Below, piece after piece: positions 5,292-25,093 of a stretch of DNA of 43,860 nt; position 1 is the first letter of the stretch; each line of letters starts with the position of its first letter. The notes beneath the pieces were generated by a model. It was given only the letters and a program-made list of their open reading frames with translations. It ran no database searches and had not been told where the DNA came from. This DNA comes from a bacterium (GTDB taxonomy: Bacteria > Cyanobacteriota > Vampirovibrionia > Gastranaerophilales > Gastranaerophilaceae): positions 1 to 43,860 of the forward strand of contig JAFQOI010000013.1 of assembly GCA_017403285.1 (NCBI GenBank), given 5' to 3'. The translations under genes were made by a program, and so were the position numbers.

Positions 5292-5292
5292 T

Positions 5293-6276: not shown

Positions 6277-6311
6277 AACTAAGATCTCCTTTTCACTCGA
6301 ATTAAAATTCA

Positions 6312-6338
6312 AGGGAAGGAAGGCAAGCTTCCTTCCCT
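6312..6338 (-). terminator. Terminator after major capsid gene
   Basis: Perfect 11-bp inverted repeat AGGGAAGGAAG / CTTCCTTCCCT with a 5-base loop, followed on the minus strand by TGAATTTTAA, just after the capsid stop codon. Confidence 0.65.
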
Positions 6339-6356
6339 CATTTATTTATCTATTTA

Positions 6357-7406: not shown

Positions 7407-7420
7407 TATATTAACCCTCC

Positions 7421-7978
7421 TTACGCTTTAATTGCCTGGAACTGAATAGCAAACTGACCATCAGGCATAGAACCTGCGCCGCAGCCGTGAATTGCTAAAA
7501 GAACTGGACCTTCAGTTGGAGCAGTCGCACTAACTAAAATAGCACCAGATTCAGAAACACCACCATAAAGAGGAGCATCTCCTTTATAAGCTTCTTTTAC
7601 AGCTTCTTCATCAGCAAATTCGCCATCATCATAGGCAAGACAATTTGTAGTAAATTTATCTCCAATAGCGAGATAACCTAAACGGGGATAGATACCATCT
7701 TTTTCGAGTTTAAAATGTTTTAATCCCTGTGTTCTTTCATCATACATAAACTCTGTAGAATAGTTAAGGGCGATTGGGAAAATCGAACCTGCTACAGGTA
7801 ATTTAATTTTACGAGCAATATTATCAACCATAAGTAACATTCCAACTTCAGCAGGAATAGCCTCAAAGTCAGTGGGATCAAGCGCGCACTGTGCTTCAAT
7901 ACGACCATCGCGTGGGAAAGCTACTTGATTTAATTCTAACTGACCATAACCGTCAATTTTAAATCTCTTTTGAGCCAT
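7421..7978 (-). CDS. Head decoration/stabilisation-type protein candidate
   Basis: 185 residues, no TAG, beta-rich, Gly/Ala-rich (ATAPTEGPVLLAIHGCGAGS near the C-terminus). It lies between protease/scaffold and major capsid, where decoration or capsid-stabilising proteins are usually encoded. It starts at ATG 7978 after GGAGGAAAG and ends 15 bases before the capsid start. Absence of TAG fits an abundant particle protein. Confidence 0.6.
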   Translation of the reverse strand: MAQKRFKIDGYGQLELNQVAFPRDGRIEAQCALDPTDFEAIPAEVGMLLMVDNIARKIKLPVAGSIFPIALNYSTEFMYDERTQGLKHFKLEKDGIYPRLGYLAIGDKFTTNCLAYDDGEFADEEAVKEAYKGDAPLYGGVSESGAILVSATAPTEGPVLLAIHGCGAGSMPDGQFAIQFQAIKA

Positions 7979-7992
7979 TTTCTTTCCTCCAC

Positions 7993-9363: not shown

Positions 9364-9378
9364 TATTTAGAGCCTCCT

Positions 9379-12725: not shown

Positions 12726-13704
12726 CACCTAATCCAGGATCAAATTCTTCATCTTTCATTAATCCAGCATAGCCCGCATCATCATACTCATCTAAGTTAT
12801 ATTCTTTATTTGTATCATAATAATCTTCCAGCTCGGCCGCAGACTATAAAGTCTAAACACGTCTATCAATTTCTTCTGCAAGTCCAGTTTCATTTGTATA
12901 AAGTCTCTAAGTGAAATTCTAAATATTCTTCATTGTTTCATCAACGATATCTCTCGTAACACCATCAAAAAACTTATTCTTCCAACCTCTTTTCTCAAGC
13001 CAACGAAATAATTCTGCAACTGATTCAAAATCAGTCGCGCTTTTAACATTTTTTGGAGTAAATTCTCCAACCTTAACCATTTTATCATAACTTGATAAAA
13101 GCTTATCGAAATCTTGTCCCGCGCGAATACGTGCGTCAATTTCAAGAGAAATTTTACATATCTTCTGCGCCTAATCAACCTAAAGCGCGCCATTCACATT
13201 TTGAGTAGAAAGCAAACCACTATATAAATCTTCAAGATAAATCAGATCTTCATCATCATAATTTGCTCCCCATTTTTCCCTTAGTTTTCTAAACTTCTCA
13301 TCTCTTAAACCAGGTAATTCATCCTCAATAAGATTAACTTCTTTTAAAGACTTAAACTAATTATAATAATCATCCCAACCTAAATCTAAATACTAATCTC
13401 CATTAAATACCTAAGCATAAACTCCCCAAATATTTTCTGGTGTATTTATTTCTTTTAATCTTTCCCACTCTTTAGGAACCCAAGGAATATCAGCCCATTG
13501 ACAAACTTTATCAACCGCGCGCCAATCAAAGTCAGCATCTTTTAAAAATTCAGTAATACAACTATTACATATTGGAAGTGTTCCATCTTTAAAAAAATAA
13601 GAAGTTGATGGAGAAAAGTTTTCCGTCCCAAAAGTCCCGCCGCACCGCTCGCACTGCTTAAAGGAAAAATTAGTTTTCTTCTTTATTTTCGGTGCTAATG
13701 ACAT
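12712..13704 (-). CDS. Zinc-ribbon protein upstream of terminase (small-subunit candidate), TAG-recoded
   Basis: 330 residues with nine TAG codons. The N-terminus has a CxxC...CxxC zinc-ribbon pattern (CERCGGTFGTENF ... PICNSC) at residues 18-50. The remainder is helical and acidic, ending DDDE just before the terminase ATGs, with which it overlaps. In phages the gene just before the large terminase usually encodes the small terminase subunit, so this is a candidate DNA-recognition subunit. The family was not recognised by sequence. It starts at ATG 13704 after GAGGT, inside the end of the upstream gene. Confidence 0.55.
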
Positions 13705-13921
13705 CGTGTTTTACCTCTCGTAACATTTTAATAATCTATCTACGTACAGGGCGCGACAGGGTAGGAAACTTTTCAATTATTTCAAATACTAGTTCTTCGC
13801 CCTTTTTAAGTTCATTACCTCTAGAAAATGAAACACACATAATGCGTGCGAGTCCATAAATTTCTTCTGGCTAAAGTTTAGTTAAAAGTGTTAAAAATTC
13901 ATTATTTTGTTTTTTATTCAT
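13670..13921 (-). CDS. Small conserved-position protein, TAG-recoded
   Basis: 83 residues from ATG 13921, which shares ATGA with the stop of the upstream gene, to TAA at 13670-13672, overlapping the next gene by 35 bases. Two TAG codons (inside LLTKL-TAG-PEEIYGLAR and RPVRR-TAG-IIKML) hide it from standard gene callers. Helical with the phrase LARIMCVSFSRGNELKKGEELVFEIIEKFP. The overlapping arrangement and codon use support that it is real; function unknown. Confidence 0.6.
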
Positions 13922-15249
13922 TTATTTATTCTCCTTGCGTCACGTTTTTTCTTATCACATCTCTTACATTGAGTAGAAAATCCATCATTTGAACGAGCTT
14001 TGTGCATAAAATTATCAGTACTTATAAACAACATTTCACCACATTCTCTACATCTTTTAAAATTTTCTGGATAAGGTAAATTCTATATAATTTCTTCATG
14101 AATGCGCGCAGCTTCATTAATTGCTGGAATAATTCTCTATTTGAATATAGTTGAAATATAGTTTGGATTATAAGTTTTATTATATTTAGGATTGATAATT
14201 TGTGTAATTTCCAAATTTTGGACGCGGCGCAATTTTAATGCTAAAATTTCTCTCTATACATCAGTTAATTTCGCGCGCGCAATATAAAAATTAAGAGTGT
14301 CTAAAAACTAATTTAAAGTTGAATAAACTTCATTTTGTTCTGCGTCATACTCTAAAACTTCTAACAAGTTAAAAGCATTATAAACATGGTTTGCTTCTCT
14401 AAAATCAAAAAACTATCCTTTTAAGCTTTTTCTATGCCAATAATCCTTAATTACTGCTTCAAGTTCTTTTTCCTAAAAATCTTCACAATAAGGAAATCTA
14501 TCCTTAGGAAAAAGTTTTGAGTTTTTTAAATATTTTAACCCTACGGGCAAAATATTAATATCGGCATCAAATATTGGGGGAATAGCTTGTTCAGTTATTG
14601 AAGCTTCTTTAATCACTCTCTAAGTTTTATATGAGTCGCGCAGTGTAAATTGTTCTCTGCGCAGTTCAACAAGTAAGTGTCTGCGTTTTAAATATGAATA
14701 TTGATTTAAATGTTTTGCTTTTTCTTTTATTTGTTCAATTTCTTTTGGTGAAAATTTATTAATTAATTCAGGTCTAGGTTCAAGTTTTCGTTTATTATGC
14801 GCGAGGTCATAGAAATTTATCAAAAGGTCTAACTCATCAATTTCCTTCCATAGCTCCTCAAAACGAGGTAATAAATAAGGTGGTGCCTCTTCGCGCGCTT
14901 CTTGTCTAGAGAAAATTTTTTTAGTTTGTTTTAGTGCTGGTTCTGTTGAAGCACGTATTATATGTTCAGAAAATCCAGGTGTCTCAAGTAAGGCATCAAG
15001 AGATTCATCCTAAACACAGTCCCATGTTTTGTTGCGCGATTCGAGTTGTATGTCTTTTGATTGTTTTGAGTTTAAACCAGTTTGAGGGTCTTTGCCCCAA
15101 AGTATATAGTTAGCGATTGTTTCAAGTTCTTCCTCGGTTGGAGGATGTTTTTGAAATTGTTCTTGGTTTAAATATTTGTTTGCGAACTCGCTTCTTTGTT
15201 CATTTGTTTGAAGAGTGAAGTCGAGTTTTAATCGATTTTTTTTATTCAT
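13918..15249 (-). CDS. First gene of late operon, zinc-finger protein, TAG-recoded
   Basis: 443 residues with eight TAG codons; a standard reading shows only two short fragments (15010-15249 and 14620-14823). It is helical, and the C-terminus (about 395-440) carries a CRECGE ... CKRCDKKKRD zinc-binding pattern suggesting nucleic-acid binding. As the first gene after the promoter at 15316-15345 it may act in packaging or late regulation. The start ATG at 15249 is fixed by an in-frame TGA just upstream. It has no close ribosome site: the only GGAG is 41 bases away across a hairpin (15263-15286). Confidence 0.62.
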
Positions 15250-15885: not shown

Positions 15886-16404
15886 ATGAAACAGTACACC
15901 TTTAACAGAACAGACAGCGGAATTATTGGAAAAGCTTTTGAAATGGCAATTAAGGACGCACTTAGACGGCGGAATGCGGACAAAGTAAGTCCCTGCGGAA
16001 CAGCTGATTTTCGTTATAATGCGAAAAACTACGACACAAAACAGAATGGTTCAGTTATCCGCTACGCTGAACAGTCCCGCTATATTAAAGGTTCAAACCG
16101 CGTTATCTACGCAACGCACATTGCGCACACAATGACGGACATTGACGCGGACACGGTAGGCGTTACAATCGACTTACAAGGTACTGACTTCTTCTGTGTT
16201 GATCGTAAAGAGTTTATTGACTTCTTAATCTCTATCGGCTGTGTAAAGCTCAACGCAAGCAGAGGAACGGTCAACATACAAACAGTATATAACTACAAGA
16301 AAGACGCCTATCATGGCAAGAAGGGGAAGTTGATAGAAGCCTGGGCAAGCGAACATTACCTGGACGATGAAGTTATAGATGCCATATGGGAAGCCCTCTC
16401 TTGA
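15886..16404 (+). CDS. Putative PD-(D/E)XK-type nuclease-like early protein
   Basis: 172 residues, standard code, GC-richer than its neighbours. The N-terminal 55 residues have the spacing of a PD-(D/E)XK nuclease core: E19 in GKAFEMAIKDAL, D41 in GTADFRY, then D50-x-K52 in YDTKQNG. The rest is mixed alpha/beta. It is first in a unit with its own TTGACA promoter; GGAAG precedes ATG 15886. The stop codon lies in a GC-rich hairpin that is followed by a hammerhead ribozyme. The nuclease assignment is a motif-based inference and could be wrong. Confidence 0.5.
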   Translation: MKQYTFNRTDSGIIGKAFEMAIKDALRRRNADKVSPCGTADFRYNAKNYDTKQNGSVIRYAEQSRYIKGSNRVIYATHIAHTMTDIDADTVGVTIDLQGTDFFCVDRKEFIDFLISIGCVKLNASRGTVNIQTVYNYKKDAYHGKKGKLIEAWASEHYLDDEVIDAIWEALS

Positions 16405-16413
16405 GAGCTTCCC
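16389..16413 (+). other. Stable hairpin at the end of the first early gene
   Basis: GGGAAGC...GCTTCCC with an inner CTCTC/GAGAG arm spans the TGA stop and is not followed by a U-run. It would become the 3' end of the upstream mRNA after cleavage by the adjacent ribozyme and could protect it. Confidence 0.5.
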
Positions 16414-16414
16414 A

Positions 16415-16462
16415 CGGCTCAGCCGGTATGAGTCCGGCTCTGATGAGCAAGAGCGAAAGCCG
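16415..16462 (+). ncRNA. Hammerhead ribozyme (type III)
   Basis: All invariant core elements are present in order. Stem III 5' strand CGGC (16415-16418), then U-C with cleavage expected after C16420. Stem I is AGCCGG (16421-16426) with CCGGCT (16434-16439), loop of 7. CUGAUGA is at 16440-16446. Stem II is GC/GC (16447-16448 with 16453-16454) with an AAGA loop. GAAA is at 16455-16458. Stem III 3' strand is GCCG (16459-16462). Stem II is unusually short. Cleavage would separate the transcripts of the genes at 15886-16404 and 16489-16869. Confidence 0.85.
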
Positions 16463-16488
16463 AACATAAAGAAAGGAAGGAATGACCT

Positions 16489-16869
16489 ATGATCGACATT
16501 ATCAAACTGATTGACGAACGCTTTGAAGCTATTACACAGGCGCGCAATGAAGCAATAGAGGAATGCGCGCAAGCTACATCTTTAAACATTTACCAGATAA
16601 GAAAGAGCTTGGAGAAGAAGAAAGAAGAAGCTGAAAACGCCTATAATACAGCTTATGATGAGTATGAAGAGTTAAATAGCCTTTATGAGCTATTGGAATC
16701 ACAAGGCGCTTCTGATAGCGATTTAGATGAAGTCGAAGAAGAATGTGATGAAGCTTACGATAGGAAAATAAAAACCGAAGATATATACGAGCTATATGCT
16801 GATGCCTTGGAAATGATAATCAAACTTGAAGATATATTGGAATCAATAGAAGCTTTAGAGGGGAGATAG
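16489..16869 (+). CDS. Acidic coiled-coil early protein
   Basis: 126 residues, almost entirely helical, rich in Glu/Lys/Asp with heptad-like repeats from residue 35 to 125; probably a coiled coil. GGAAGG lies 9 bases before ATG 16489, within the 3' product of the hammerhead ribozyme. It ends with TAG, the only clear TAG stop among the early genes, located in the loop of the terminator at 16859-16882. If TAG were suppressed late, translation would continue through the terminator. Function unknown. Confidence 0.65.
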   Translation: MIDIIKLIDERFEAITQARNEAIEECAQATSLNIYQIRKSLEKKKEEAENAYNTAYDEYEELNSLYELLESQGASDSDLDEVEEECDEAYDRKIKTEDIYELYADALEMIIKLEDILESIEALEGR

Positions 16870-16882
16870 TCCCCTCTTTTTA
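16859..16882 (+). terminator. Terminator overlapping TAG stop
   Basis: GAGGGGA / TCCCCTC stem followed by TTTTTATT; the TAG stop codon of the upstream gene is in the hairpin loop. Confidence 0.75.
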
Positions 16883-16891
16883 TTCTTTGGT

Positions 16892-16914
16892 TTTTAGACG
16901 GCTGCCGTCTAAAA
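16892..16914. repeat. Dyad element copy 1 (variant GGC/GCC)
   Basis: TTTTAGACGGC-T-GCCGTCTAAAA, perfect 11-bp arms. The inner bases differ from the common copy but the pairing is kept. Confidence 0.85.
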
Positions 16915-16921
16915 TAGGGGC

Positions 16922-16950
16922 TTTACAAAACGCATTTTATATGATATCAT
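16922..16950 (+). promoter_or_regulatory. Early promoter
   Basis: TTTACA (16922-16927), 17-base spacer, TATCAT (16945-16950), directly downstream of dyad copy 1. Confidence 0.55.
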
Positions 16951-16981
16951 ATAATAGAAATTAGGAAAGGAATAATGAACA

Positions 16982-17161
16982 ATGTTAAAAGAATTTGTAT
17001 CTGATATGAAAGAATGGTTTTGTAATGACCATATACGCACACGGCGCGGACGCATTAGGGCTATGAGCTTGCTATGGTGGGTTATTAGAACGCTACAAGC
17101 TACGGCTGTTATCGCAGTTCTGTATGTGTGGTATTGTATGATGTGGCTTGCGTTTGTATGA
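16982..17161 (+). CDS. Small membrane protein
   Basis: 59 residues: a charged, Arg-rich N-terminal half (HIRTRRGRIRAMS) followed by one hydrophobic segment rich in Trp, Tyr and Val (LLWWVIRTLQATAVIAVLYV ... WLAFV). A single-pass membrane protein with a cytoplasmic basic part is likely. AAAGGA lies 10 bases before the ATG. It is followed by the gene at 17201 without a terminator, so the two form one unit. Confidence 0.6.
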   Translation: MLKEFVSDMKEWFCNDHIRTRRGRIRAMSLLWWVIRTLQATAVIAVLYVWYCMMWLAFV

Positions 17162-17200
17162 GCTATAAATAAAAGCTAGCTAAAGAAAGGAAGTAATTAA

Positions 17201-17431
17201 ATGAATCTTAAAGAAGCTGTTATATATGGAATTAAAATGGGGATGGAGACTTTTAGCATAAGACATTTTAAATATAATGGGCACTGTTTTGAGCAAAGCT
17301 TAGAAACAATTTTAGAATTTATTCAAGGCTATGAAGATTGTATTCCAATTACTTGTTATTATGGAAGCTGGGATTCTGACCGTCCAACTCATTGTCATAT
17401 TTCGTATAAATTAAAAGAAGAAAGTCTTTAA
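17201..17431 (+). CDS. Small early protein of unknown function
   Basis: 76 residues, ATG 17201 after GAAAGGAAG. Mixed helix/strand, rich in His, Tyr and Cys (FKYNGHCFEQ ... CYYGSWDSDRPTHCHISYK). The C- and H-containing C-terminal part could bind a metal, but there is no defined motif. The stop TAA is in a hairpin terminator (AAAGTCTTTAAGACTTTCTTTTTT). Confidence 0.6.
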   Translation: MNLKEAVIYGIKMGMETFSIRHFKYNGHCFEQSLETILEFIQGYEDCIPITCYYGSWDSDRPTHCHISYKLKEESL

Positions 17432-17449
17432 GACTTTCTTTTTTCTAAA

Positions 17450-17476
17450 AAAATTAGACGCACTGCGTCTAATTTT
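17450..17476. repeat. Dyad element copy 2 (variant GCA/TGC)
   Basis: AAAATTAGACGCA-C-TGCGTCTAATTTT, perfect 13-bp arms; compensatory change relative to other copies. Confidence 0.85.
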
Positions 17477-17491
17477 AAGTCAAAGTTTTTC

Positions 17492-17520
17492 TTGCTTTTT
17501 TTAAAATTTTTTGGTATAAT
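17492..17520 (+). promoter_or_regulatory. Early promoter
   Basis: TTGCTT (17492-17497), 17-base spacer, TATAAT (17515-17520). Confidence 0.6.
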
Positions 17521-17553
17521 TTAATCAAGAAATGAGGAAAGGAAATTAAAAAA

Positions 17554-17997
17554 ATGACTATTTATTTTGATATGGATGGAACTTTGGCAGACCTTTACAA
17601 TGTAGACGGATGGCTTGAAAAATTGCGCTCGTTTGATAGTCAGCCCTATGAAGAAGCTGAACCGCTGTGTGACCTGTCGTATCTTGCGCGCCTGCTGAAT
17701 TTTTTGCAAAAAAATGGACATGATATTGGTATTATTTCTTGGCTTTCAAAAGACGCTACAGCTGAATATGATAAAGCTGTTAGAATTTCTAAAAAAAGAT
17801 GGCTCGCAAAACATTTGCCGTCTGTGGTGTGGGATGAAATTCATTTAGTAAAATATGGTACTCCAAAACATTTTTGTTGTCAAGATAATTCTGGAATTTT
17901 ATTTGATGATAACGAAGATGTGAGAAGATTGTGGGATAAAAGAGGAAAAAGTTTTTCAGAAAATGATATTATTGAAGTTTTGAAAGAACTTCTTTAA
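17554..17997 (+). CDS. HAD-superfamily phosphatase
   Basis: 147 residues. Motif I is YFDMDGTLADL at residues 4-14, with both Asp residues that form and act on the phospho-aspartate intermediate; motif II lies near IISWLSKD (about residue 65-72), a Lys follows in RISKKRWLAK, and the acidic motif IV is ILFDDNEDV near 119-127. The size is that of small 5'-nucleotidase-like HAD proteins in phages, so a nucleotide or small-phosphate substrate is plausible. The unit has its own promoter and a GC-rich terminator (about 18022-18058). Confidence 0.75.
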   Translation: MTIYFDMDGTLADLYNVDGWLEKLRSFDSQPYEEAEPLCDLSYLARLLNFLQKNGHDIGIISWLSKDATAEYDKAVRISKKRWLAKHLPSVVWDEIHLVKYGTPKHFCCQDNSGILFDDNEDVRRLWDKRGKSFSENDIIEVLKELL

Positions 17998-18021
17998 TAT
18001 AAAAATTCCTTTCTTGTGTGG

Positions 18022-18058
18022 AGAAGTCGGGGCAGAAATGTCCCGATTTCTTTTTTTT
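18022..18058 (+). terminator. Terminator after HAD gene
   Basis: GAAGTCGGG...CCCGATTTC hairpin followed by eight T residues. Confidence 0.75.
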
Positions 18059-18068
18059 GGAATTTTAT

Positions 18069-18087
18069 TTAGACGTCTTACGTCTAA
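18069..18087. repeat. Dyad element copy 3
   Basis: TTAGACGT-CTT-ACGTCTAA, just upstream of the promoter at 18106. Confidence 0.85.
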
Positions 18088-18105
18088 TTTTTCTGCAAAA
18101 AATGA

Positions 18106-18134
18106 TTGACTATAAGATTAAAATATATTATACT
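18106..18134 (+). promoter_or_regulatory. First of two tandem promoters
   Basis: TTGACT (18106-18111), 17-base spacer, TATACT (18129-18134). Confidence 0.65.
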
Positions 18135-18139
18135 ATAAT

Positions 18140-18255
18140 TGTTCCAAGGGAAGGGAACAAAAATTAAAAATATAGGTAAGCAGTTTTAGCATCCTTTCTG
18201 CGAAAATCCCTTCCCAAGGAATCTCCAAAAAAACTTGAAAAAAGTTGAAAAAAGG
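18140..18255 (+). ncRNA. Possible short structured RNA/leader between tandem promoters
   Basis: No ORF. The start GTTCCAAGGGAAGGGAAC can fold alone or pair with TCCCTTCCCAAGGAA about 60 bases later, giving two competing structures. A GTTCCAAGGGAAC hairpin also starts the transcript at about 23052. Whether a separate RNA ends here is not shown. Confidence 0.35.
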
Positions 18256-18257
18256 GG

Positions 18258-18286
18258 TTGACAAAAAACCAAAAGTTTGGTATAAT
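18258..18286 (+). promoter_or_regulatory. Second tandem promoter
   Basis: TTGACA (18258-18263), 17-base spacer, TATAAT (18281-18286). Confidence 0.72.
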
Positions 18287-18326
18287 AAAAACATCAAAGG
18301 GGGACAGGAACTCCCGAAAAAATAAA

Positions 18327-18375
18327 AGGGTTGCGACCAACGCAGTAGGCGCGAAAGCGCAGAAAGGAAACTAAA
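18327..18375 (+). promoter_or_regulatory. Conserved leader motif GGGTTGCGACC
   Basis: The leader has AAAGGGTTGCGACCAACGCA followed by a GCGCGAAAGCGC hairpin and the ribosome site. The same GGGTTGCGACC-(x)-A-C-CGCA block precedes the paralogous gene at 24722. Confidence 0.5.
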
Positions 18376-18732
18376 ATGACGAACAGGAACTTTTTTGAAC
18401 TCGTAGCTGCTGGCACTCTGAATGAGGAAGTTATCGCTCACGCTGTGGCGCAGATTGAGAAAATGGATGCTACTAACGCAAAGCGAAAAGAGAAACCTTC
18501 CAAAACTGCTGTTGCTAATGAGCCTATTAAACAGGCAATTATGGATTTTATTACTGGTCGAAATGAAATCTGTATCGCAAGCGCAGTGGCGGAAGCTGTA
18601 GAAATCAGCGTACAGAAAGCATCTTCTTTGCTGAATCAGTTGGCGGAAGATGGAAAACTCACCAAGACCGAGGTCAAAGTCCCCAAAAAGGGTTTGCAGA
18701 AAGCATATGGACTGGTTGAGGTTGGGGAATAA
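18376..18732 (+). CDS. Winged-helix-like early DNA-binding protein, paralogue of 24722-25093
   Basis: 118 residues. The N-terminal FFELVAAGTLNEEVIAHA block matches MMEMVAAGKMNEEIQEMA of the protein at 24722-25093. The middle (residues 55-100: PIKQAIMDFITGRNEICIAS ... SLLNQLAEDGKLTKTE) has the look of a small winged helix, and the C-terminus is KGLQKAYGLVEV versus KGTQKGYIVVE. Both genes have tandem promoters and the same leader motif. High-expression signals suggest an abundant DNA-binding or histone-like regulator. Function is inferred only. Confidence 0.6.
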   Translation: MTNRNFFELVAAGTLNEEVIAHAVAQIEKMDATNAKRKEKPSKTAVANEPIKQAIMDFITGRNEICIASAVAEAVEISVQKASSLLNQLAEDGKLTKTEVKVPKKGLQKAYGLVEVGE

Positions 18733-18766
18733 TCCCCAACCCACAAAAAAGAAAGGAGAAAATTAA

Positions 18767-19021
18767 ATGAAAATTTATCTTGTTATGGACGCAATCAACG
18801 GAAAAGATTACAGGGTATTTACTATGAAGAATGACGCAAAAAACTTTATTCTAAAACAATATGAAAGTTTTTTGAAGTGGGAAAAAGAAAATTTTCCAGA
18901 AATGGAACAAGTGATTGATATGGAAAAAGCAAAAGTATATTTCAAAGAAATAAATGGTGTTGAAGATTTTATGTATATTGAAGAATTAACACTAGATGAC
19001 TTTTCAGATATAGAATGGTAA
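18767..19021 (+). CDS. Small acidic early protein
   Basis: 84 residues, second gene of the 18376 unit (34-base gap, AGGAGA before the ATG, no terminator between them). Starts MKIYLVMDAINGKDYRVFTM, then a helix rich in Lys/Glu, ending acidic DDFSDIEW. Not recognised. A GAGGG...CCCTC hairpin with a T-run follows (about 19032-19058). Confidence 0.6.
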   Translation: MKIYLVMDAINGKDYRVFTMKNDAKNFILKQYESFLKWEKENFPEMEQVIDMEKAKVYFKEINGVEDFMYIEELTLDDFSDIEW

Positions 19022-19067
19022 CAATTAAATTGAGGGGAGAGATTCTTCCCTCTTTTTTCAGAAAATT

Positions 19068-19090
19068 ATTTAGACGTTTTACGTCTAAAT
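19068..19090. repeat. Dyad element copy 4
   Basis: ATTTAGACGT-TTT-ACGTCTAAAT, perfect 10-bp arms. Confidence 0.85.
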
Positions 19091-19106
19091 TTTATTTAAG
19101 TTGGGG

Positions 19107-19135
19107 TTGAATTTTTAAGATTGATGTGATATAAT
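19107..19135 (+). promoter_or_regulatory. Early promoter
   Basis: TTGAAT (19107-19112), 17-base spacer, TATAAT (19130-19135). Confidence 0.65.
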
Positions 19136-19166
19136 TTAGGTACAGTAAAAAAAAGGAGAAAGAAAA

Positions 19167-19388
19167 ATGAAAATTACTGATAGATTCAAAAGAAAAGAAA
19201 CGGCATACAGAGATGTTGAAGCAGGTGTAGTATTCAAATATGAAAATGAATATTATATGACAACTGAAGAGATTACAGACAATTATGATGATGTTTGTAA
19301 TTGTGTAAATCTTGGAAGCGGAGAACTTCTTAGTTTTGATATTGATACTATGGTAGAAGTTCTTGATGCAGAATTGGTTATTAAATAA
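19167..19388 (+). CDS. Small conserved early protein
   Basis: 73 residues after AAGGAG. Beta-rich small domain with FKYENEYYMTTEEI and ending EVLDAELVIK, a type of small protein common in Bacillota phages but without known function. It is followed by a degenerate small gene (19404-19544). Confidence 0.6.
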   Translation: MKITDRFKRKETAYRDVEAGVVFKYENEYYMTTEEITDNYDDVCNCVNLGSGELLSFDIDTMVEVLDAELVIK

Positions 19389-19403
19389 AGGAGAAAAATT
19401 AAA

Positions 19404-19544
19404 ATAGCAAAGTTTAGAATTTGAGGAATGATTGACATTGAAGTTGATGTTGAATCTGAGGAAGAAGCACTGGAAGGGTTTGAGATTGGTCTTGATGATG
19501 TGGTATCATCTTGTATTGATATTGAACTGATTGAGGAAGATTAA
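19404..19544 (+). pseudogene. Degenerate copy of small acidic protein (ATA start, in-frame TGA)
   Basis: AAGGAG is followed, at normal spacing, by ATA-GCA-AAG-TTT-AGA-ATT-TGA-GGA rather than an ATG ORF. Reading through gives AKFRI-x-GMIDIEVDVESEEEALE, clearly related to the intact gene at 21650 (KFYRIYGYVEVQVEANSEEEALE). So the start is ATA where ATG is expected, and a TGA replaces an aromatic residue, possibly Trp (TGG). An internal ATG at 19428 has no well-spaced ribosome site. Most likely a decayed gene; readthrough of TGA is an unproven alternative. Confidence 0.55.
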
Positions 19545-19580
19545 AGAAATTGGGGAAGTCTCTTGACTTCCTCCCCGCGA

Positions 19581-19601
19581 TTTAGACGTCTTACGTCTAA
19601 A
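19581..19601. repeat. Dyad element copy 5
   Basis: TTTAGACGT-CTT-ACGTCTAAA, perfect 9-bp arms. Confidence 0.85.
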
Positions 19602-19619
19602 CAAAATCAAAATTAAAAC

Positions 19620-19648
19620 TTGATTTTTTAGAAAATTTTTGATATAAT
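19620..19648 (+). promoter_or_regulatory. Early promoter
   Basis: TTGATT (19620-19625), 17-base spacer, TATAAT (19643-19648). Confidence 0.65.
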
Positions 19649-19682
19649 TTATTTAGAAAATAAAAGAAAGGAATTTTATCTT

Positions 19683-20024
19683 ATGTCTAAAAAACTTGAC
19701 GATGCACTCCGTGAAAAATGGGTAAAACTTACAAAAGAATGGTTGGAATCTATTGATGAAGAAGCAATCAAATACAAAACAAATGAGATTTGTATTCCAA
19801 CGGTTGATGAAGCAGGTAATGATAAATATGTTCAGTTTGTTATAAAAATTCCTAAAGGTTCAAGAGATGGTGAAGAGTTTGACGGTTATTCTATGAGAGA
19901 GGAATACGAAATCAAACTGAAAGAGAAAGCCGAAAAGGAAAAGAAAGCTGCAGAGGCAAAAGCAAAAAAGATTGAGAGAGATAAAAAAATAAGAGAAAAG
20001 AAAACAAAAGAAAAGGAAGAGTAA
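19683..20024 (+). CDS. Early protein with Lys/Glu-rich tail, paralogue of 23096-23428
   Basis: 113 residues. The N-terminal 75 residues form a small mixed domain (EICIPTVDEAGNDKYVQFVI). The C-terminal 40 residues are an uninterrupted charged helix containing AEAKAKKIERDK, also present in the protein at 23096-23428; both share a preceding REEY-x-x-K block. The tail could bind nucleic acid or form a coiled coil. GAAAGGAA precedes the start. The TAA is followed by a weak TCTTCC...GGAAGA hairpin with TTTTTT. Confidence 0.6.
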   Translation: MSKKLDDALREKWVKLTKEWLESIDEEAIKYKTNEICIPTVDEAGNDKYVQFVIKIPKGSRDGEEFDGYSMREEYEIKLKEKAEKEKKAAEAKAKKIERDKKIREKKTKEKEE

Positions 20025-20041
20025 TCTTCCTTTTTTAATCT

Positions 20042-20064
20042 ATTTAGACGTAGTACGTCTAAAT
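20042..20064. repeat. Dyad element copy 6
   Basis: ATTTAGACGT-AGT-ACGTCTAAAT, six bases upstream of the TTGACA box. Confidence 0.85.
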
Positions 20065-20070
20065 AAAGAA

Positions 20071-20099
20071 TTGACAAATCACGCCTTATGCGTTATAAT
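20071..20099 (+). promoter_or_regulatory. Early promoter
   Basis: TTGACA (20071-20076), 17-base spacer, TATAAT (20094-20099). Confidence 0.75.
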
Positions 20100-20132
20100 G
20101 TATATGTAAATTAAAGAAAGGAAAAATAAAAA

Positions 20133-20600
20133 ATGTTAGCAAGTTATATAATCTTCAATGTATTAAATGTAATTATCCAAACAGTTAAATCCATTGTTAC
20201 CATTAAATGTAATAAATGGGTTGCCGCAATCGTCAATGCAGTTGCTTATGGTTTATATACATACATCATTGTACTAACCGCAACAGATATGAATCTTTGG
20301 GCAAAAATTATTATCACTGCCTTGGCGAACTTAGTTGGCGTTTTTGTAGTAAAGTTTGTTGAAGAAAAGAAAAGAAAAGATAAAATGTGGCTTGTTAAAA
20401 TGACTATTCCTACTGAATATGCAAAGCAAGCAAAATATTTGTTAGACCAAGCAAAAATTCCTTTTACTTACTATGATTTGAATAAATATTTTGTTTTTGA
20501 TACTTTTTGTGAAACCCAAGCCGAAACCACAAATGCAACTAAGATTTGCACTGCTTGTCAGGGTAAGGCTTTTGCAAGCGAAAACAAACTTAACTTATAA
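20133..20600 (+). CDS. Membrane protein with cytoplasmic C-terminal domain
   Basis: 155 residues. Three hydrophobic segments (about 4-24, 30-48, 52-76) are followed by a charged KRKDK stretch and a soluble domain of some 70 residues (MTIPTEYAKQAKYLLDQAKI, then PFTYYDL) that looks like a small alpha/beta module. The topology would place the C-terminus in the cytoplasm. GAAAGGAA precedes ATG 20133. The 3' end overlaps the convergent homing endonuclease gene by 6 bases within a perfect dyad (AAACTTAACTT/AAGTTAAGTTT). Function unknown. Confidence 0.65.
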   Translation: MLASYIIFNVLNVIIQTVKSIVTIKCNKWVAAIVNAVAYGLYTYIIVLTATDMNLWAKIIITALANLVGVFVVKFVEEKKRKDKMWLVKMTIPTEYAKQAKYLLDQAKIPFTYYDLNKYFVFDTFCETQAETTNATKICTACQGKAFASENKLNL

Positions 20601-20611
20601 GTTAAGTTTGT
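20585..20611. terminator. Bidirectional terminator of convergent genes
   Basis: Dyad CAAACTTAACTT ... AAGTTAAGTTTG contains the stop codons of both the membrane protein (plus) and the homing endonuclease (minus) and has T-rich flanks on the plus side. Confidence 0.55.
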
Positions 20612-21317
20612 TTTCTAAATATTCCCAATTAATTTTATCAAAATCATAATAGGGAATTTCTATTAGTATTATATTGTTATCTTTACAATACTATCTCTTC
20701 ATCTCATCGTGCGCCCGGGGTGAATTTTTCCATACTCCATGTAGTGCATTTTCATCATAGTGTTGAATTCCCTAATATTCTACTAAGCACTTTAATGTGT
20801 TATCATCATTATAAATAGCAAAATCAAAATACAGGTAATTCTTATCCTTTAAGTCGGGAAAATAAAACTAAGTTTTATATGGTATATTGTGATCAAAAAG
20901 AATACTATTTATCTTTTGTTCTCCTTTTGAGCGCACACAACCACATGAAACAATGTCCCCTCTTTTTAAACTATTAGAATTAACATAAGCAATATTTCCA
21001 CAATCACACTTACATTTCCACATAATACATCCGTCGCTACTTCTCAACTCGGTCTTTTCCAAAACCAAAAGTTTTCCATATTTGTTACCAATAATATTTT
21101 TGGCCATCATTTTTGACATCACTTCTGCGCGTTTGCAACCACAAGAAGTCGTATGCCCATTGGTTAAATTAGAAGTCGGGACAATTGTTTTGTTACCACA
21201 TTCGCATTCGCAATACCAAAACACTTTATCAGGATTGGGTCTTTGTTCTCTGGGTAATTCTCCAATAACTTTTAGTTTACCAAAGGTCATATTAGTTAAG
21301 TCTCTTTTTGCTCCCAT
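20595..21317 (-). CDS. Homing endonuclease, zinc-finger plus VSR/EDxHD-like nuclease, TAG-recoded
   Basis: 240 residues with TAG at 20868, 20772 and 20691. The N-terminal 150 residues hold two repeats of a Cys-rich module (W-x-C-x-C-x-CGN...SCGC), as in phage endonucleases. The C-terminus is a compact nuclease domain: FDFAIYND, then LVEY-TAG-GIQHY, then DEMKR-TAG-YCKDN and IEIPY. In this family the motif is EYQG-x-QHY, so the TAG stands exactly at a conserved Gln. It has a strong AGGAGG and is the only minus-strand gene in the early array, probably a mobile insertion using the phage's late code. Confidence 0.78.
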
Positions 21318-21405
21318 TTTTGTTGCCTCCTTTTTTTTGTTCTATATATAAGTGGAAAGATTGAAACTAAAATACATAAAATTGAGGCAACTTTGTACCC
21401 GGCGC

Positions 21406-21427
21406 CGAGTTAGTTCAGGCTAACTCG
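21406..21427. promoter_or_regulatory. Dyad element CGAGTTAG-N6-CTAACTCG
   Basis: Perfect 8-bp dyad upstream of the TTGACA promoter at 21458, related to the dyad at 15705-15722; it stands where the other units have the TTTAGACGT dyad. Confidence 0.5.
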
Positions 21428-21457
21428 AATTTTCTCAAAAAAGTTTTGAAAAAAGTA

Positions 21458-21486
21458 TTGACATATACGGCGCGATGTGGTATTAT
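21458..21486 (+). promoter_or_regulatory. Early promoter
   Basis: TTGACA (21458-21463), 17-base spacer, TATTAT (21481-21486). Drives a four-gene unit. Confidence 0.7.
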
Positions 21487-21517
21487 ATACTTGCCGAAAG
21501 GGAAAGGAGAATGTTAA

Positions 21518-21649
21518 ATGAGTTTTTGCGATAAGATAAATTGTGGTTACTACTACAAGGGCGAAAATGACAGATTCCCTTGTTGCCACTTTGAAGGCCC
21601 AGATGGTTGGGCGCCGTGTGAGCAGGATGAGTATGAGGAGGAAGAGTAA
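21518..21649 (+). CDS. Small Cys-rich protein
   Basis: 43 residues, ATG 21518 after GGAAAGGAGA. Five Cys (SFCDKINCGYY ... PCCHFEG ... APCEQ) and an acidic tail; it may bind a metal. The TAA is joined to the ATG of the next gene (TAAATG). Confidence 0.5.
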   Translation: MSFCDKINCGYYYKGENDRFPCCHFEGPDGWAPCEQDEYEEEE

Positions 21650-21784
21650 ATGAAATTTTATCGGATTTATGGCTATGTGGAAGTACAAGTAGAGGCAAAT
21701 AGTGAAGAGGAAGCACTGGAAATCTTTGAAGATGAATGTATTATTGATGAAGTAATGAGTGCTATTGATATTGAGGAGGAGTAA
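21650..21784 (+). CDS. Small acidic protein, intact relative of 19404-19544
   Basis: 44 residues, MKFYRIYGYVEVQVEANSEE then an acidic helix. GAGGAGGAAGAG in the preceding gene supplies the ribosome site. The SEEEALE helix occurs in many small phage proteins; function unknown. Confidence 0.5.
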   Translation: MKFYRIYGYVEVQVEANSEEEALEIFEDECIIDEVMSAIDIEEE

Positions 21785-21973
21785 ATGAAAAAAATTGTCG
21801 AAGTAAATGTTTTCTTTGAACTTGAAGTAGAAGAAAAAGAAAATATTCATAATAAAGCATGGGAATATATTGAAGATAATCTTTCTGATGTATTTAGTAT
21901 AGAAGGTAGCGAACTAACCATTTACAATCCAAATGGTGAAAGATATTTTGAAGATGATGAGGAGGAAAAGTAA
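21785..21973 (+). CDS. Small acidic protein
   Basis: 62 residues, ATG immediately after the previous TAA, GGAGGAG as ribosome site. Starts MKKIVEVNVFFELEVEEKEN; similar strand-helix-strand look to the preceding small proteins. Unknown. Confidence 0.55.
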   Translation: MKKIVEVNVFFELEVEEKENIHNKAWEYIEDNLSDVFSIEGSELTIYNPNGERYFEDDEEEK

Positions 21974-21974
21974 A

Positions 21975-22163
21975 ATGATAAGAATCGCAATTTGTCCCAA
22001 TTGTGGCGCAGAACTGGAACAAGACGAATGTTATGATACCAACTCTGAAGGTGATTTTATCGCAAACTATATGATAGGGCATTGCCCCAGTTGCGAAAAA
22101 GAATTCCAGTGGGTGGAAGTTTACGACTATACAGGAGTAGATGAAATTGAGGAAGTCACTTGA
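21975..22163 (+). CDS. Small zinc-ribbon protein
   Basis: 62 residues. ATG 21975 follows GGAGGAAAAG; I prefer it to the upstream in-frame ATG at 21933, which lies in the preceding gene. CPNCGAELEQDECY ... GHCPSCEKEFQW gives two CxxC pairs, a zinc ribbon. The stop TGA is in the terminator GGAAGTCACTTGACTTCCTT. Last gene of the four-gene unit. Confidence 0.65.
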   Translation: MIRIAICPNCGAELEQDECYDTNSEGDFIANYMIGHCPSCEKEFQWVEVYDYTGVDEIEEVT

Positions 22164-22177
22164 CTTCCTTTTTTTAG

Positions 22178-22200
22178 ATTTAGACGTATTACGTCTAAAT
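22178..22200. repeat. Dyad element copy 7
   Basis: ATTTAGACGT-ATT-ACGTCTAAAT. Confidence 0.85.
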
Positions 22201-22216
22201 TTTCTTCAAAAAAATA

Positions 22217-22245
22217 TTGCAAATCTTTCCACTATGTGTTATACT
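22217..22245 (+). promoter_or_regulatory. Early promoter
   Basis: TTGCAA (22217-22222), 17-base spacer, TATACT (22240-22245). Confidence 0.65.
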
Positions 22246-22278
22246 ATGTATGAAGTTAAAGAAAGGAATTTATCAACC

Positions 22279-22944
22279 ATGAAAATTGACCATCGCAAGA
22301 CTTATTACCTCACCATCGACACCGAAACCGCAAACGACATTGACTGCCCTATCGTCTTTGATATCGGCGGTGCTATTCATGATAAACACGGGGAAGTCCT
22401 GGAAACTTTCAGCTTCATCGTGCGTGAAGTGTTCTATGGTATGCCACACCTAATGGAAACCTGCTACTACCAAGCAAAGCTCCCTGCCTATCGTGCGCAA
22501 ATTGCCTGCGGTGAGCGTTGCGTGGTTAGTTGGTATGAAGTAAAAGCCCACATCGCGCACCTGTGCGAAAAGTATGATGTGCGCGCCATCATCGCCCACA
22601 ATATGCGCTTTGACTATCGCTCTACCAACACTACTCAGCGCTATCTGACCTGCTCCAAGTATCGCTACTTCTTCCCCAAGGATGTGGAAATCTGGGATAC
22701 GCTTGCCATGGCTCGTGATACTATCGTAAAACAGAAAACCTATCAGCGTTTCTGTCAAGCTAACGGCTACTGTACCAAGAACGGACAGCCCCGAGCTACT
22801 GCGGAAATCCTTTATCGGTATATCACGGGTGACAATGATTTTGAAGAATCCCATACGGGTTTGGAAGATGTGCTGATTGAAAAGGAAATTTTCGCCAAGT
22901 GTATGGCACAACACAAGAAAATGCGCCGGAGTCCGTGGAAGTAA
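22279..22944 (+). CDS. DnaQ-like 3'-5' exonuclease
   Basis: 221 residues. DEDDh exonuclease motifs are visible: LTIDTETAND (D14, E16), IIAHNMRFDY near residue 110, and ESHTGLEDVLIE near 195-206 with the His and Asp of motif III. It has no polymerase domain, so it is a stand-alone exonuclease acting on DNA or RNA ends. ATG 22279 follows GAAAGGAAT; the upstream in-frame ATG at 22141 lies in the previous gene and is rejected. GC content is higher than in the neighbours. Terminator TCCGTGGAA...TTCCACGGA plus T8 follows. Confidence 0.8.
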   Translation: MKIDHRKTYYLTIDTETANDIDCPIVFDIGGAIHDKHGEVLETFSFIVREVFYGMPHLMETCYYQAKLPAYRAQIACGERCVVSWYEVKAHIAHLCEKYDVRAIIAHNMRFDYRSTNTTQRYLTCSKYRYFFPKDVEIWDTLAMARDTIVKQKTYQRFCQANGYCTKNGQPRATAEILYRYITGDNDFEESHTGLEDVLIEKEIFAKCMAQHKKMRRSPWK

Positions 22945-22970
22945 TTCCACGGATTTTTTTTCGCAAATGG

Positions 22971-22991
22971 TTTAGACGTCTTACGTCTAAA
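22971..22991. repeat. Dyad element copy 8
   Basis: TTTAGACGT-CTT-ACGTCTAAA. Confidence 0.85.
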
Positions 22992-23018
22992 ATTCTTCTA
23001 AAAACTTTTCAAAAACCA

Positions 23019-23047
23019 TTGACATTCTCTCAGGGATATGGTATTAT
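23019..23047 (+). promoter_or_regulatory. Early promoter
   Basis: TTGACA (23019-23024), 17-base spacer, TATTAT (23042-23047); the transcript then begins with a GTTCCAAGGGAAC hairpin. Confidence 0.7.
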
Positions 23048-23095
23048 ATAATCGTTCCAAGGGAACAGAAAAAATTTTGAAAGGGGCAAATCAAT

Positions 23096-23428
23096 ATGAA
23101 AATTGTAGTTGCCAATGCTATTCGTGAACACTATATCAATGCTATTCTTTCCCTGTTTAATGAGGAAGACACTGGAATGATTGCTTCCAATTCTTTCAAC
23201 TTCCCCATTGTTTGGGAAGGTGAGGAAGGATGTGTAGAAATTGTTGTCAAAGTCCCTAAGTATGATGGAGATGAAATTTACGCTTTGCGTGAAGAGTACG
23301 CCCTGAAATGCGCTGAGCGTGAAGCTAAGGCCAAGGAAAAAGCAGAAGCTAAGGCGAAAAAAATCGAGCGTGACAAGGCTGAGCGTGAAGCACGCAAAGC
23401 CGCCAAAGAAAAGGAAAAGGGTGAATAA
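23096..23428 (+). CDS. Early protein with charged helical tail, paralogue of 19683-20024
   Basis: 110 residues. N-terminal mixed domain, then ALREEYALKCAEREAKAKEK and AEAKAKKIERDK, matching the tail of the 19683 gene. GC-richer codons than its paralogue suggest separate acquisition or strong expression. GAAAGGGGC precedes the start; the TAA lies in an AAAAGGGTGAATAACCCTTTT terminator. Confidence 0.6.
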   Translation: MKIVVANAIREHYINAILSLFNEEDTGMIASNSFNFPIVWEGEEGCVEIVVKVPKYDGDEIYALREEYALKCAEREAKAKEKAEAKAKKIERDKAEREARKAAKEKEKGE

Positions 23429-23446
23429 CCCTTTTCTTTTCGATAG

Positions 23447-23467
23447 TTTAGACGTAGTACGTCTAAA
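23447..23467. repeat. Dyad element copy 9
   Basis: TTTAGACGT-AGT-ACGTCTAAA. Confidence 0.85.
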
Positions 23468-23474
23468 TTTTTTC

Positions 23475-23503
23475 TTGACTTAATATATATATTATGTTAT
23501 ACT
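23475..23503 (+). promoter_or_regulatory. Early promoter
   Basis: TTGACT (23475-23480), 17-base spacer, TATACT (23498-23503). Confidence 0.68.
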
Positions 23504-23526
23504 ATATTCTGTTAGGAGGACGATGT

Positions 23527-23835
23527 ATGAAAAAAGATTTTATTTATTTTATCAGAATTGGTGAGCCAAGTGAACGACTTTTCAAAATTGGTACTACCAA
23601 TGATATACGGCGCAGAATGCGCGAACATGAAAAGTATTATGGAAAAAAGGTGATGGTACTTTGGCAAAGTCCAGCCTATTCAAAATGGACAACTTTAAGG
23701 GTTGAGGACAAAATGAAAAATCAATGGATTAAAGAAGGAGTTTTTGAATATTTAAGAAATGATAGATTTTTAATTCCAGAAAATATTAAAGAAATTAAAA
23801 TTAAAGTTAGGAAAGAATATGTGGTGTCAATTTGA
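23527..23835 (+). CDS. T5orf172/GIY-YIG-related small nuclease-like protein
   Basis: 102 residues from ATG 23527, seven bases after AGGAGG; the upstream start at 23494 would include the promoter and is rejected. IYFIRIGEPSERLFKIGTTN followed by DIRRRMREHEKYYG is the signature of the T5orf172 subgroup of GIY-YIG domains. Being only one domain without a DNA-binding extension, it may nick DNA or act with a partner. The TGA lies in the perfect terminator GTGGTGTCAATTTGACACCA plus T7. Confidence 0.68.
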   Translation: MKKDFIYFIRIGEPSERLFKIGTTNDIRRRMREHEKYYGKKVMVLWQSPAYSKWTTLRVEDKMKNQWIKEGVFEYLRNDRFLIPENIKEIKIKVRKEYVVSI

Positions 23836-23857
23836 CACCACTTTTTTTGAAAAAATT

Positions 23858-23878
23858 TTTAGACGTTTTACGTCTAAG
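23858..23878. repeat. Dyad element copy 10
   Basis: TTTAGACGT-TTT-ACGTCTAAG; the last base of the outer arm is changed. Confidence 0.8.
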
Positions 23879-23885
23879 TTAGTTA

Positions 23886-23914
23886 TTGACTCGCGCCGAA
23901 ATGTGTGGTATAAT
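23886..23914 (+). promoter_or_regulatory. Early promoter
   Basis: TTGACT (23886-23891), 17-base spacer, TATAAT (23909-23914). Confidence 0.72.
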
Positions 23915-23944
23915 TTAGATACAAAGTAAGGAAGGAATTAAAAA

Positions 23945-24127
23945 ATGAGAATTGTAAAGTGTGAGAAAATTTTTCTATCGCAGAACGAAGCAGATGTTTG
24001 GGCAAATTTTAATCTGATTCTTGAAGGTTTAGAACGAGGAAGCGAAAGTCCAGATATAGGAAATCTGGTTTGTAAAATTCTAAGTTTGCTTGATAAATTA
24101 TGGGAAGAAATTGAAGATATCGAATAA
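23945..24127 (+). CDS. Small early protein
   Basis: 60 residues, ATG 23945 after GGAAGG. Helical, acidic C-terminus (KLWEEIEDIE). No family recognised. Own promoter, and terminator AAAGGACTTAACAAGTCCTTTTTTT. Confidence 0.55.
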   Translation: MRIVKCEKIFLSQNEADVWANFNLILEGLERGSESPDIGNLVCKILSLLDKLWEEIEDIE

Positions 24128-24167
24128 AAAGGACTTAACAAGTCCTTTTTTTATTTCTCAAAAAAAT

Positions 24168-24188
24168 TTTAGACGTATCACGTCTAAA
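24168..24188. repeat. Dyad element copy 11
   Basis: TTTAGACGT-ATC-ACGTCTAAA. The last copy, followed by the iteron-like region rather than directly by a promoter. Confidence 0.85.
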
Positions 24189-24198
24189 TTTTTAATTT

Positions 24199-24469
24199 TG
24201 TCAAATTTTTAATTTTGTCAAATTTTATTCTCCCATGCACATCGCGCGACTGCGCGCAAATTTTCGGGTTTGTCAAATTTTAAACCAGCTACACCAGCTG
24301 TCAAATTAAGCCAGCTGTCAAATTTTAAACAAGCTGCGAATCAGCTGCGTTGTCAAATTTCAAGCAGCTACAAATTCTCTTTATATTTATATTTCCCCTT
24401 TTATTATACCACAAATTTAAAAAAGCTACAAGTTTTATTAAGCTACAAATTTCGCGCGATGTCAAATTT
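24199..24469. repeat. Iteron-like array of TGTCAAATT (7 copies), gene-free
   Basis: TGTCAAATTT/A occurs at 24199, 24216, 24271, 24299, 24316, 24351 and 24460, all in the same orientation, interspersed with CAGCTG/CAGCTA and AGCTACAA units. No ORF of note overlaps. Repeated short direct repeats in an AT-rich gap are typical of replication origins or multi-site regulator binding. Confidence 0.6.
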
Positions 24470-24517
24470 TTAGAGTTATTAAATAACAAATCTACTTAAA
24501 TAAAAAAAACTTAAAAT

Positions 24518-24546
24518 TTGAAAAAGCTGAGAATTTTTGTTATACT
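24518..24546 (+). promoter_or_regulatory. First of two tandem promoters
   Basis: TTGAAA (24518-24523), 17-base spacer, TATACT (24541-24546). Confidence 0.62.
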
Positions 24547-24604
24547 ATATATAGAAAGTGAGAGAAAAATAAAAAAACTTTAAAAAAACCTCGGCAATAA
24601 AAAT

Positions 24605-24633
24605 TTGAAAAAAATCTAAAAATAAGCTATAAT
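24605..24633 (+). promoter_or_regulatory. Second tandem promoter
   Basis: TTGAAA (24605-24610), 17-base spacer, TATAAT (24628-24633), followed by a GAGAGA...TCTCTC hairpin and then the GGGTTGCGACC leader. Confidence 0.65.
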
Positions 24634-24687
24634 ATATATGTAAGGTTGAGAGAGAAACAAGCTCTCTCCTTAAATAAAAATCTAATT

Positions 24688-24721
24688 GGGTTGCGACCTA
24701 CCGCAAGAAAGAGGTAAAATT
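24688..24721 (+). promoter_or_regulatory. Conserved leader motif GGGTTGCGACC, second copy
   Basis: TTGGGTTGCGACCTACCGCA just before the ribosome site (AAAGAGG) of the gene at 24722; same block as at 18327. GGT and ACC could pair, exposing GCGA. Confidence 0.5.
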
Positions 24722-25093
24722 ATGACAAAGCGTGAAATGATGGAAATGGTAGCTGCTGGTAAGATGAACGAGGAAATTCAGGAAATGGCGCAGAAAATTC
24801 TTGAAGCAATGAATGCTGATAAAGAAAAGCGTGCTGCTAAACAGGCGGAAAAGGCTGATAGTGTTTATGCTCCTTTCATTGAAAAATTTGTTAGCGCGCT
24901 GACTGCTGAGCCGAAAACTGCGACTGATATTCTTCCTGCGTTTGAAGGAGATATTGCGCCGAGTGGTAAGCCTGTGAGTGTTCAGTTCTTGACTTCTATC
25001 GGTGGTAAGGCTTTTAATCAGGGCCTGTGCCATAAGGTAGATGTAAAGGTTAAAGGTAAAGGTACTCAGAAGGGCTATATCGTAGTTGAATAA
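24722..25093 (+). CDS. Early DNA-binding-type protein, paralogue of 18376-18732
   Basis: 123 residues from ATG 24722 (a TTG start at 24686 lies inside the conserved leader and is rejected). MTKREMMEMVAAGKMNEEIQ matches the N-terminus of the 18376 protein, and the KGTQKGYIVVE end matches its C-terminus; the middle differs. Tandem promoters and the shared leader suggest common control. A GAGAGC...GCTCTC terminator with T8 follows. It is the last rightward gene before the convergent gap. Role unknown. Confidence 0.62.
   Translation: MTKREMMEMVAAGKMNEEIQEMAQKILEAMNADKEKRAAKQAEKADSVYAPFIEKFVSALTAEPKTATDILPAFEGDIAPSGKPVSVQFLTSIGGKAFNQGLCHKVDVKVKGKGTQKGYIVVE

Follow-up and report, generated by a model that had tools for sequence, protein, structure and literature searches.

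TAG codons in a predicted free-standing homing endonuclease among the ordinary-code early genes of a recoded phage

Introduction

Recoding in phages has mostly been considered as a switch that serves structural and lysis genes. The window, i.e. the whole stretch of 43,860 nucleotides analysed here (contig JAFQOI010000013.1 of the Gastranaerophilaceae assembly GCA_017403285.1), raises the question of why a gene with three in-frame TAG codons is placed, on the opposite strand, inside a block of early genes that follow the ordinary code. The answer depends on what the gene encodes, how its TAG codons are read, whether its product is kept intact and when that product would be made in full.

Table 1 Features of the window, with strand and codon content
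Feature	Position	Strand	Remarks
Late block (head, packaging, tail)	1317..15249	-	46 TAG, 105 CAA, 33 CAG; stops TAA/TGA only
Terminase large subunit	10920..12752	-	nine in-frame TAG
Terminase TAG at invariant Gln, residue 141	12330..12332	-	CAPGKN-TAG-SAK
Ordinary-code block, 14 called genes	15886..25093	+	0 TAG in 47 Gln codons
TAG as stop codon of early gene 16489-16869	16867..16869	+	
Sites of palindrome TTTAGACGT-nnn-ACGTCTAAA	18069-18087, 19068-19090, 22971-22991, 23445-23469, 23858-23878, 24168-24188		
Convergent neighbour of endonuclease, early gene	20133..20600	+	0 TAG
Palindrome encoding last residues of both convergent genes	20584..20614	.	both end ENKLNL
Predicted homing endonuclease, Vsr/EDxHD-type	20595..21317	-	240 codons, three TAG; PHROG matches, model
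Endonuclease TAG codon 209	20691..20693	-	DEMKR-TAG-YCK; column E14/Q12
Endonuclease TAG codon 182	20772..20774	-	LVEY-TAG-GIQHY; column D34/Q8/TAG2/N1; TAG also in L220
Endonuclease TAG codon 150	20868..20870	-	IPYKT-TAG-FYF; column E24/Q20; CAA in L220
541-codon gene, no known family	36933..38558	-	20 of 33 Gln codons are TAG; adjoining genes TAG-free
tRNA-Gln, anticodon UUG	38813..38886	-	

Results

The gene opens with an ATG at 21317, preceded by AGGAGG, and its frame holds no TAA and no TGA besides the three TAG; read by the ordinary code, it would stop after 149 residues. Its PHROG matches are HNH/homing endonuclease families. The structure model, built from 32 homologues, reached a mean pLDDT of 91, and its residues 128-240 form a nuclease domain, containing all three TAG codons, which superposes, over residues 129-240, on E. 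coli Vsr (1cw0, Z 10.5) and on I-Bth0305I (3r3p, Z 10.1). With these two enzymes the window protein shares the fold of the nuclease domain over about 100 aligned residues as well as conserved acidic and His residues, whereas identity is 13-15%, the protein is free-standing and two Cys-rich repeats in its N-terminal part take the place of the known DNA-binding parts. D165, H186 and D204 are invariant among 32 family members and E133 is nearly so; these four were matched to the published EDxHD catalytic set by position, without superposition. When PDB sequences were searched, neither the endonuclease profile nor the terminase gave a match. No group I intron or other intron family was matched anywhere in the window, and thus the gene is taken as free-standing, as many homing endonucleases are, and an intron-encoded enzyme was dropped from consideration. 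The gene is classed as a free-standing Vsr/EDxHD-type (I-Bth0305I-type) homing endonuclease, for which cleavage and homing are predicted.

The meaning of TAG can be deciphered from the late genes and from the endonuclease family itself. The earlier note had placed a terminase TAG at the Gln typical of the Walker A loop. The Gln stands, since residue 141 is Gln in 66 of 66 IMG/VR relatives (also in 5 of 5 named standard-code phages, and TAG in phage phAss-1); the Walker A label does not, as the P-loop is the invariant R108-A-F-S-K-T/S113 and the TAG falls 28 residues beyond it, in a downstream A-x-x-K-x-Q-[AS]-A element. Ten late genes, with X at each TAG, were aligned with about 80 relatives which the terminase had picked out in IMG/VR. 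Over the 44 scorable TAG columns Gln was enriched 11.5-fold over background and was the plurality residue in 19, while every other residue stayed at or below 1.6-fold; the reference values were 12.2-fold for CAA columns (plurality Gln in 42 of 89) and 14.1-fold for CAG columns. Several columns are Gln throughout, including terminase 141 and position 178 of g12712 (62/62). All recoded genes of the window end in TAA or TGA only.

A second line of evidence comes from the endonucleases. At 81 TAGs of the family, Gln is enriched 5.5-fold in the homologue columns, and the near-invariant Gln of the G-x-Q-H motif is TAG in about nine other homologues, each independent (L224, L225, L228, L229, L247 twice, L260, L267 and G008). 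In total the Vsr-type family holds 90 in-frame TAG against 12 TAA/TGA, ten of the latter being TGA at Trp positions of one TGA-recoded contig and 2 lying elsewhere. In the window gene, codon 182 sits two residues past the invariant E180 and four ahead of the invariant H186 (peptide CLVEYQGIQHYDENALHGVWK). The TAG that had been noticed in EY-TAG-G is present in the nuclease domain as described, but its column is mostly Asp and does not mark a conserved Gln. Altogether, the reading of TAG as Gln is firmly supported, as well as sequence can do so, and both the late genes and the G-x-Q-H columns corroborate what the earlier note had proposed.

As regards its setting, the endonuclease has 3 TAG and 3 CAA codons, which differs from the plus-strand block around it (Fisher p = 0.0009), and it is oriented opposite to its plus-strand neighbours. 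The observation that no other gene of the standard-code early block is recoded, and that this one lies on the opposite strand, holds for the window. Most genes of the block possess their own sigma70-like promoter, and for the endonuclease a search for its own -35/-10 promoter gave no sigma70-like match. Ahead of it there is just a TATATATA stretch, together with a strong AGGAGG site resembling those of late genes, a likeness that carries no evidential weight. A GIY-YIG endonuclease that the window also contains (40909-41568) is without TAG in its 3 Gln codons.

The palindrome TTTAGACGT-nnn-ACGTCTAAA is repeated between the early genes, just upstream of sigma70-like promoters, and may be an operator or a terminator; contig G001 has a repeat resembling it.

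The same site was compared in two related contigs, L220 and G001, in both of which it is flanked by an orthologue of the gene at 20133-20600. L220 has an orthologue of the endonuclease (61% identical) at the same site and in the same orientation, with one TAG at the shared EY-TAG-G codon and another elsewhere, only one position being common to both genes. The palindromic design of the convergent pair is kept there in a different sequence, and both proteins end in NKLGL. L220 also carries an additional GIY-YIG endonuclease with 8 TAG, on the early-gene strand. G001, whose terminase is 82% identical to that of the window, is not recoded and has no endonuclease at the site; its terminase has one TAG, ahead of the conserved part. 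The flanks are too diverged for a base-level reconstruction of the empty-site junction in G001. When the window gene is compared with its L220 orthologue, pN/pS comes to 0.34 for the whole gene and to 0.51 for its first half, with a value of 0.20 behind the first TAG (pN 0.17, pS 0.86). Such a low value behind the first TAG indicates that this part is made and used, and the endonuclease is, by this comparison, intact past its TAGs.

Recurrence of the pattern was assessed in recoded relatives, all of them metagenomic contigs, in which genes were called with TAG as sense by a simple greedy method and endonucleases were found by two profiles built here (Vsr type and GIY-YIG). A neighbourhood was regarded as TAG-free when the six nearest genes had at most one TAG. 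In such neighbourhoods 13 of 18 endonucleases had at least two TAG, compared with 21 of the 158 genes of other kinds (p = 2.6e-7, odds ratio 17), a count in which some contigs had been picked for TAG-bearing endonucleases. After removal of the endonucleases by which contigs had been picked, and of the window, 9 of 14 endonucleases still had at least two TAG (p = 5e-5), and in contigs picked by the terminase alone the figures were 3 of 4 against 8 of 70 other genes (p = 0.009). Under a stricter pairing, 46 of 174 Gln codons were TAG in endonucleases and 68 of 568 in other genes (p = 0.02). Greedy calling leaves some spurious antisense frames in the comparison group; their TAGs inflate its count and thus bias the test against an excess in endonucleases.

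Individual phages bear this out. In phAss-1, which was not chosen for the pattern, a GIY-YIG endonuclease (63005-63985) has TAG at 8 of 24 Gln codons, and on the same strand the ribonucleotide reductase has 0/29 and two topoisomerase-like genes have 0/27 and 0/14. In G013, an endonuclease with 7 TAG overlaps a topoisomerase-like gene with 0/16. In related recoded phages some TAG-bearing endonucleases run in the same strand direction as the replication genes. The pattern is not universal, as 11 of 67 endonucleases of recoded contigs are without TAG. G026, recoded with 4 TAG in its terminase, is a clear exception (endonucleases with 0 TAG in 11 Gln codons), and G011 has a CUA tRNA and an endonuclease without TAG. 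The homing endonucleases that carry TAG among TAG-free genes thus belong to two structural types or more, and the pattern recurs.

In L256, two endonucleases (512-1375 and 8834-9514) have five TGA each at family Trp positions, and by its sequence this appears to be a TGA = Trp phage whose endonucleases behave likewise.

Translation of the TAG codons was considered from the side of phage and host. A pattern search with stem pairing, which recovered the tRNA of G008, found no CUA tRNA in the window. The window phage is incomplete, its tape-measure gene running off the left end, and in G002, the nearest 80-kb relative, a CUA tRNA lies about 24 kb past the point that corresponds to this end. Searches of the assembly for the remainder of the phage matched only the host DNA polymerase, and a search with the G002 tRNA gave no match. 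CUA tRNA genes are present in the recoded relatives G008, G016, G017, G021 and G002, and phAss-1 has three (PMC10607447). The assembly contains host release factor 1 (prfA, 488.8 bits, above cut-off), and no CUA anticodon was found among the host tRNAs read in it; the host reads TAG as stop. Joint mobilisation of the endonuclease with the suppressor tRNA was considered and rejected, the two being near each other in phAss-1 only and at chance distance in other phages.

In the CUA tRNA of G002 (41637-41711, equal to L142 1501-1575) the T arm is odd and the T loop differs from TTCGAAT; this tRNA was missed by ARAGORN and is just above the Rfam cut-off; the tRNA-Gln(UUG) of L147 has a similar odd arm. 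Such odd-armed tRNAs may explain suppressors that seem to be missing in recoded phages. A ROOL RNA lies beside the tRNA arrays of two phages with CUA tRNAs (L082 4139-4709 and L139 2090-2724).

Discussion

These results are best brought together by assigning the window to a phage of the code-15 type (TAG = Gln) that is related to phAss-1 and lives in a host whose translation is ordinary. With three TAGs in the nuclease domain, the full-length enzyme would need a phage suppressor tRNA-Gln(CUA). In the published view, reassigned TAGs are translated late, once the suppressor tRNA is made (PMC9523058). Because the host has release factor 1 and the relatives carry CUA tRNAs, and given this view, the full-length endonuclease is expected only late, when the suppressor would appear, despite the position of its gene among ordinary-code early genes, where it would form a late-coded island. 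The reading as a whole, i.e. an intact homing endonuclease that is suppressor-dependent, and hence late, among early genes, is in our judgement probable.

The competing account that survives best, to which we give slightly less than an even chance, states that endonucleases which are dispensable or needed in traces are under relaxed constraint only, CAG drifting to TAG wherever a suppressor exists and TAG having no role in timing. It accounts for these data and needs no new function: TAG has nearly taken the place of CAG, as it has in TAG-rich genes (pooled TAG/(TAG+CAG) of 0.80 in endonucleases and 0.74 in TAG-rich genes, figures that fit tolerated TAGs and a translational lock alike), TAG positions turn over between orthologues, and some endonucleases of recoded phages have no TAG. 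Yet conservation continues behind the TAGs, so that the protein is used, and a selected timer fits the findings equally. Relaxed constraint is compatible with suppressor dependence and disputes the timing role alone, and our confidence in it therefore overlaps with that in the suppressor-dependent, late endonuclease.

The opposite extension, namely that the in-frame TAGs are a selected translational lock by which endonucleases of early operons are co-transcribed and completed only when suppressor tRNA accumulates, is put forward tentatively, as a possibility that we rather doubt. It would be the counterpart of the hairpins of T4-like phages; in T4 I-TevI and Aeh1 mobE, late translation is enforced by an RNA hairpin over the ribosome site (PMC3014915). 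Here too a homing endonuclease lies among early or middle genes and is expected late, but in-frame TAGs would do what is achieved there by hiding the ribosome site.

It is improbable that one endonuclease lineage adapted to recoded phages was spread by homing, although the gene is of a mobile type, is absent from G001 and has in L220 a nearest relative that also bears TAG. In a tree of 46 Vsr-type endonucleases the TAG-bearing members are scattered, with 12 changes of the TAG label against a shuffled mean of 14 (deep branches being poorly supported), which argues that they are not one lineage. The sister pair L238 (no TAG) and L241 (seven TAG) differs in code at 64% identity, four of the L241 TAGs being Gln in L238; GIY-YIG endonucleases behave likewise, and an orthologue at the same site speaks for residence instead of recent arrival. 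The scatter over the tree, together with the single TAG position shared by the orthologues, indicates that TAGs were acquired in place, repeatedly, in recoded genomes. The earlier note had suggested that the gene came in by mobility and was adapted to the code of the phage; its mobile character can thus be retained and the pre-adapted arrival given up. A single origin is largely refuted by the tree, weak as its deep branches are; local spread inside one phage genus is conceivable.

Reading of TAG by ordinary near-cognate decoding without a CUA tRNA, for instance by the UUG tRNA of Table 1, the only phage Gln tRNA seen in the window, is very unlikely, as a UUG anticodon could read TAG only with G-U pairing at the first position of the codon, CUA tRNAs occur in recoded relatives and the contig covers part of the phage only. 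A decaying pseudogene with nonsense mutations, to which in-frame stops by the ordinary code would point, is hardly credible, given that all three stops are TAG, that the family outside the one TGA-recoded contig has 90 TAG against 2 TAA/TGA, that conservation is stronger past the first TAG and that the confident model has a Vsr fold with its conserved acidic and His residues.

The closest match is with phAss-1 and the Phassvirus group proposed for it (OQ749652; PMC10607447). There, too, late genes use TAG for Gln and the terminase has TAG at the corresponding codon, CUA tRNAs are present as in the recoded relatives, and a GIY-YIG endonuclease rich in TAG lies between genes that have none; the terminases are 37.8% identical over 87%, and the gene content is otherwise unlike that of the window. 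The term homing endonuclease is absent from the phAss-1 paper (PMC10607447). Code-15 crAss-like phages are alike in TAG = Gln, late use and an ordinary-code host, and for them TAG = Gln has been proved by proteomics with peptides from late structural proteins (PMC9523058); the word 'endonuclease' is absent from that paper. In the open-access literature we found no earlier mention of the pattern of TAG-bearing endonucleases.

The pattern would mean that the late code is followed, time and again and in two structural types, by selfish genes situated where the genome otherwise uses the ordinary code, with the in-frame TAG as a marker, legible from sequence alone, of genes that need the code switch. 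It would link the delay of homing endonuclease translation, already known, to the reassignment of a stop codon, and TAG-bearing endonucleases could be used to test if recoding sets the time at which proteins are made. Annotation of early regions by the ordinary code cuts short or misses such endonuclease genes.

Additional observations

Homologues of the TAG-rich 541-codon gene of the window are found in G003 (5068-6621) and in G008 (11 TAG). The gene at 32186-32626 (minus strand), in a second TAG-free block, has one TAG near its start, which may be a recoded codon or point to a later start. At 34516-36871 an EcoRI-type adenine methyltransferase adjoins a GmrSD_N-HNH protein, possibly a pair of modification and defence. 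Split terminase genes, probably interrupted by introns or endonuclease genes, were seen in G013 (39436-41979), G028 (33843-38062) and G029 (44290-47053).
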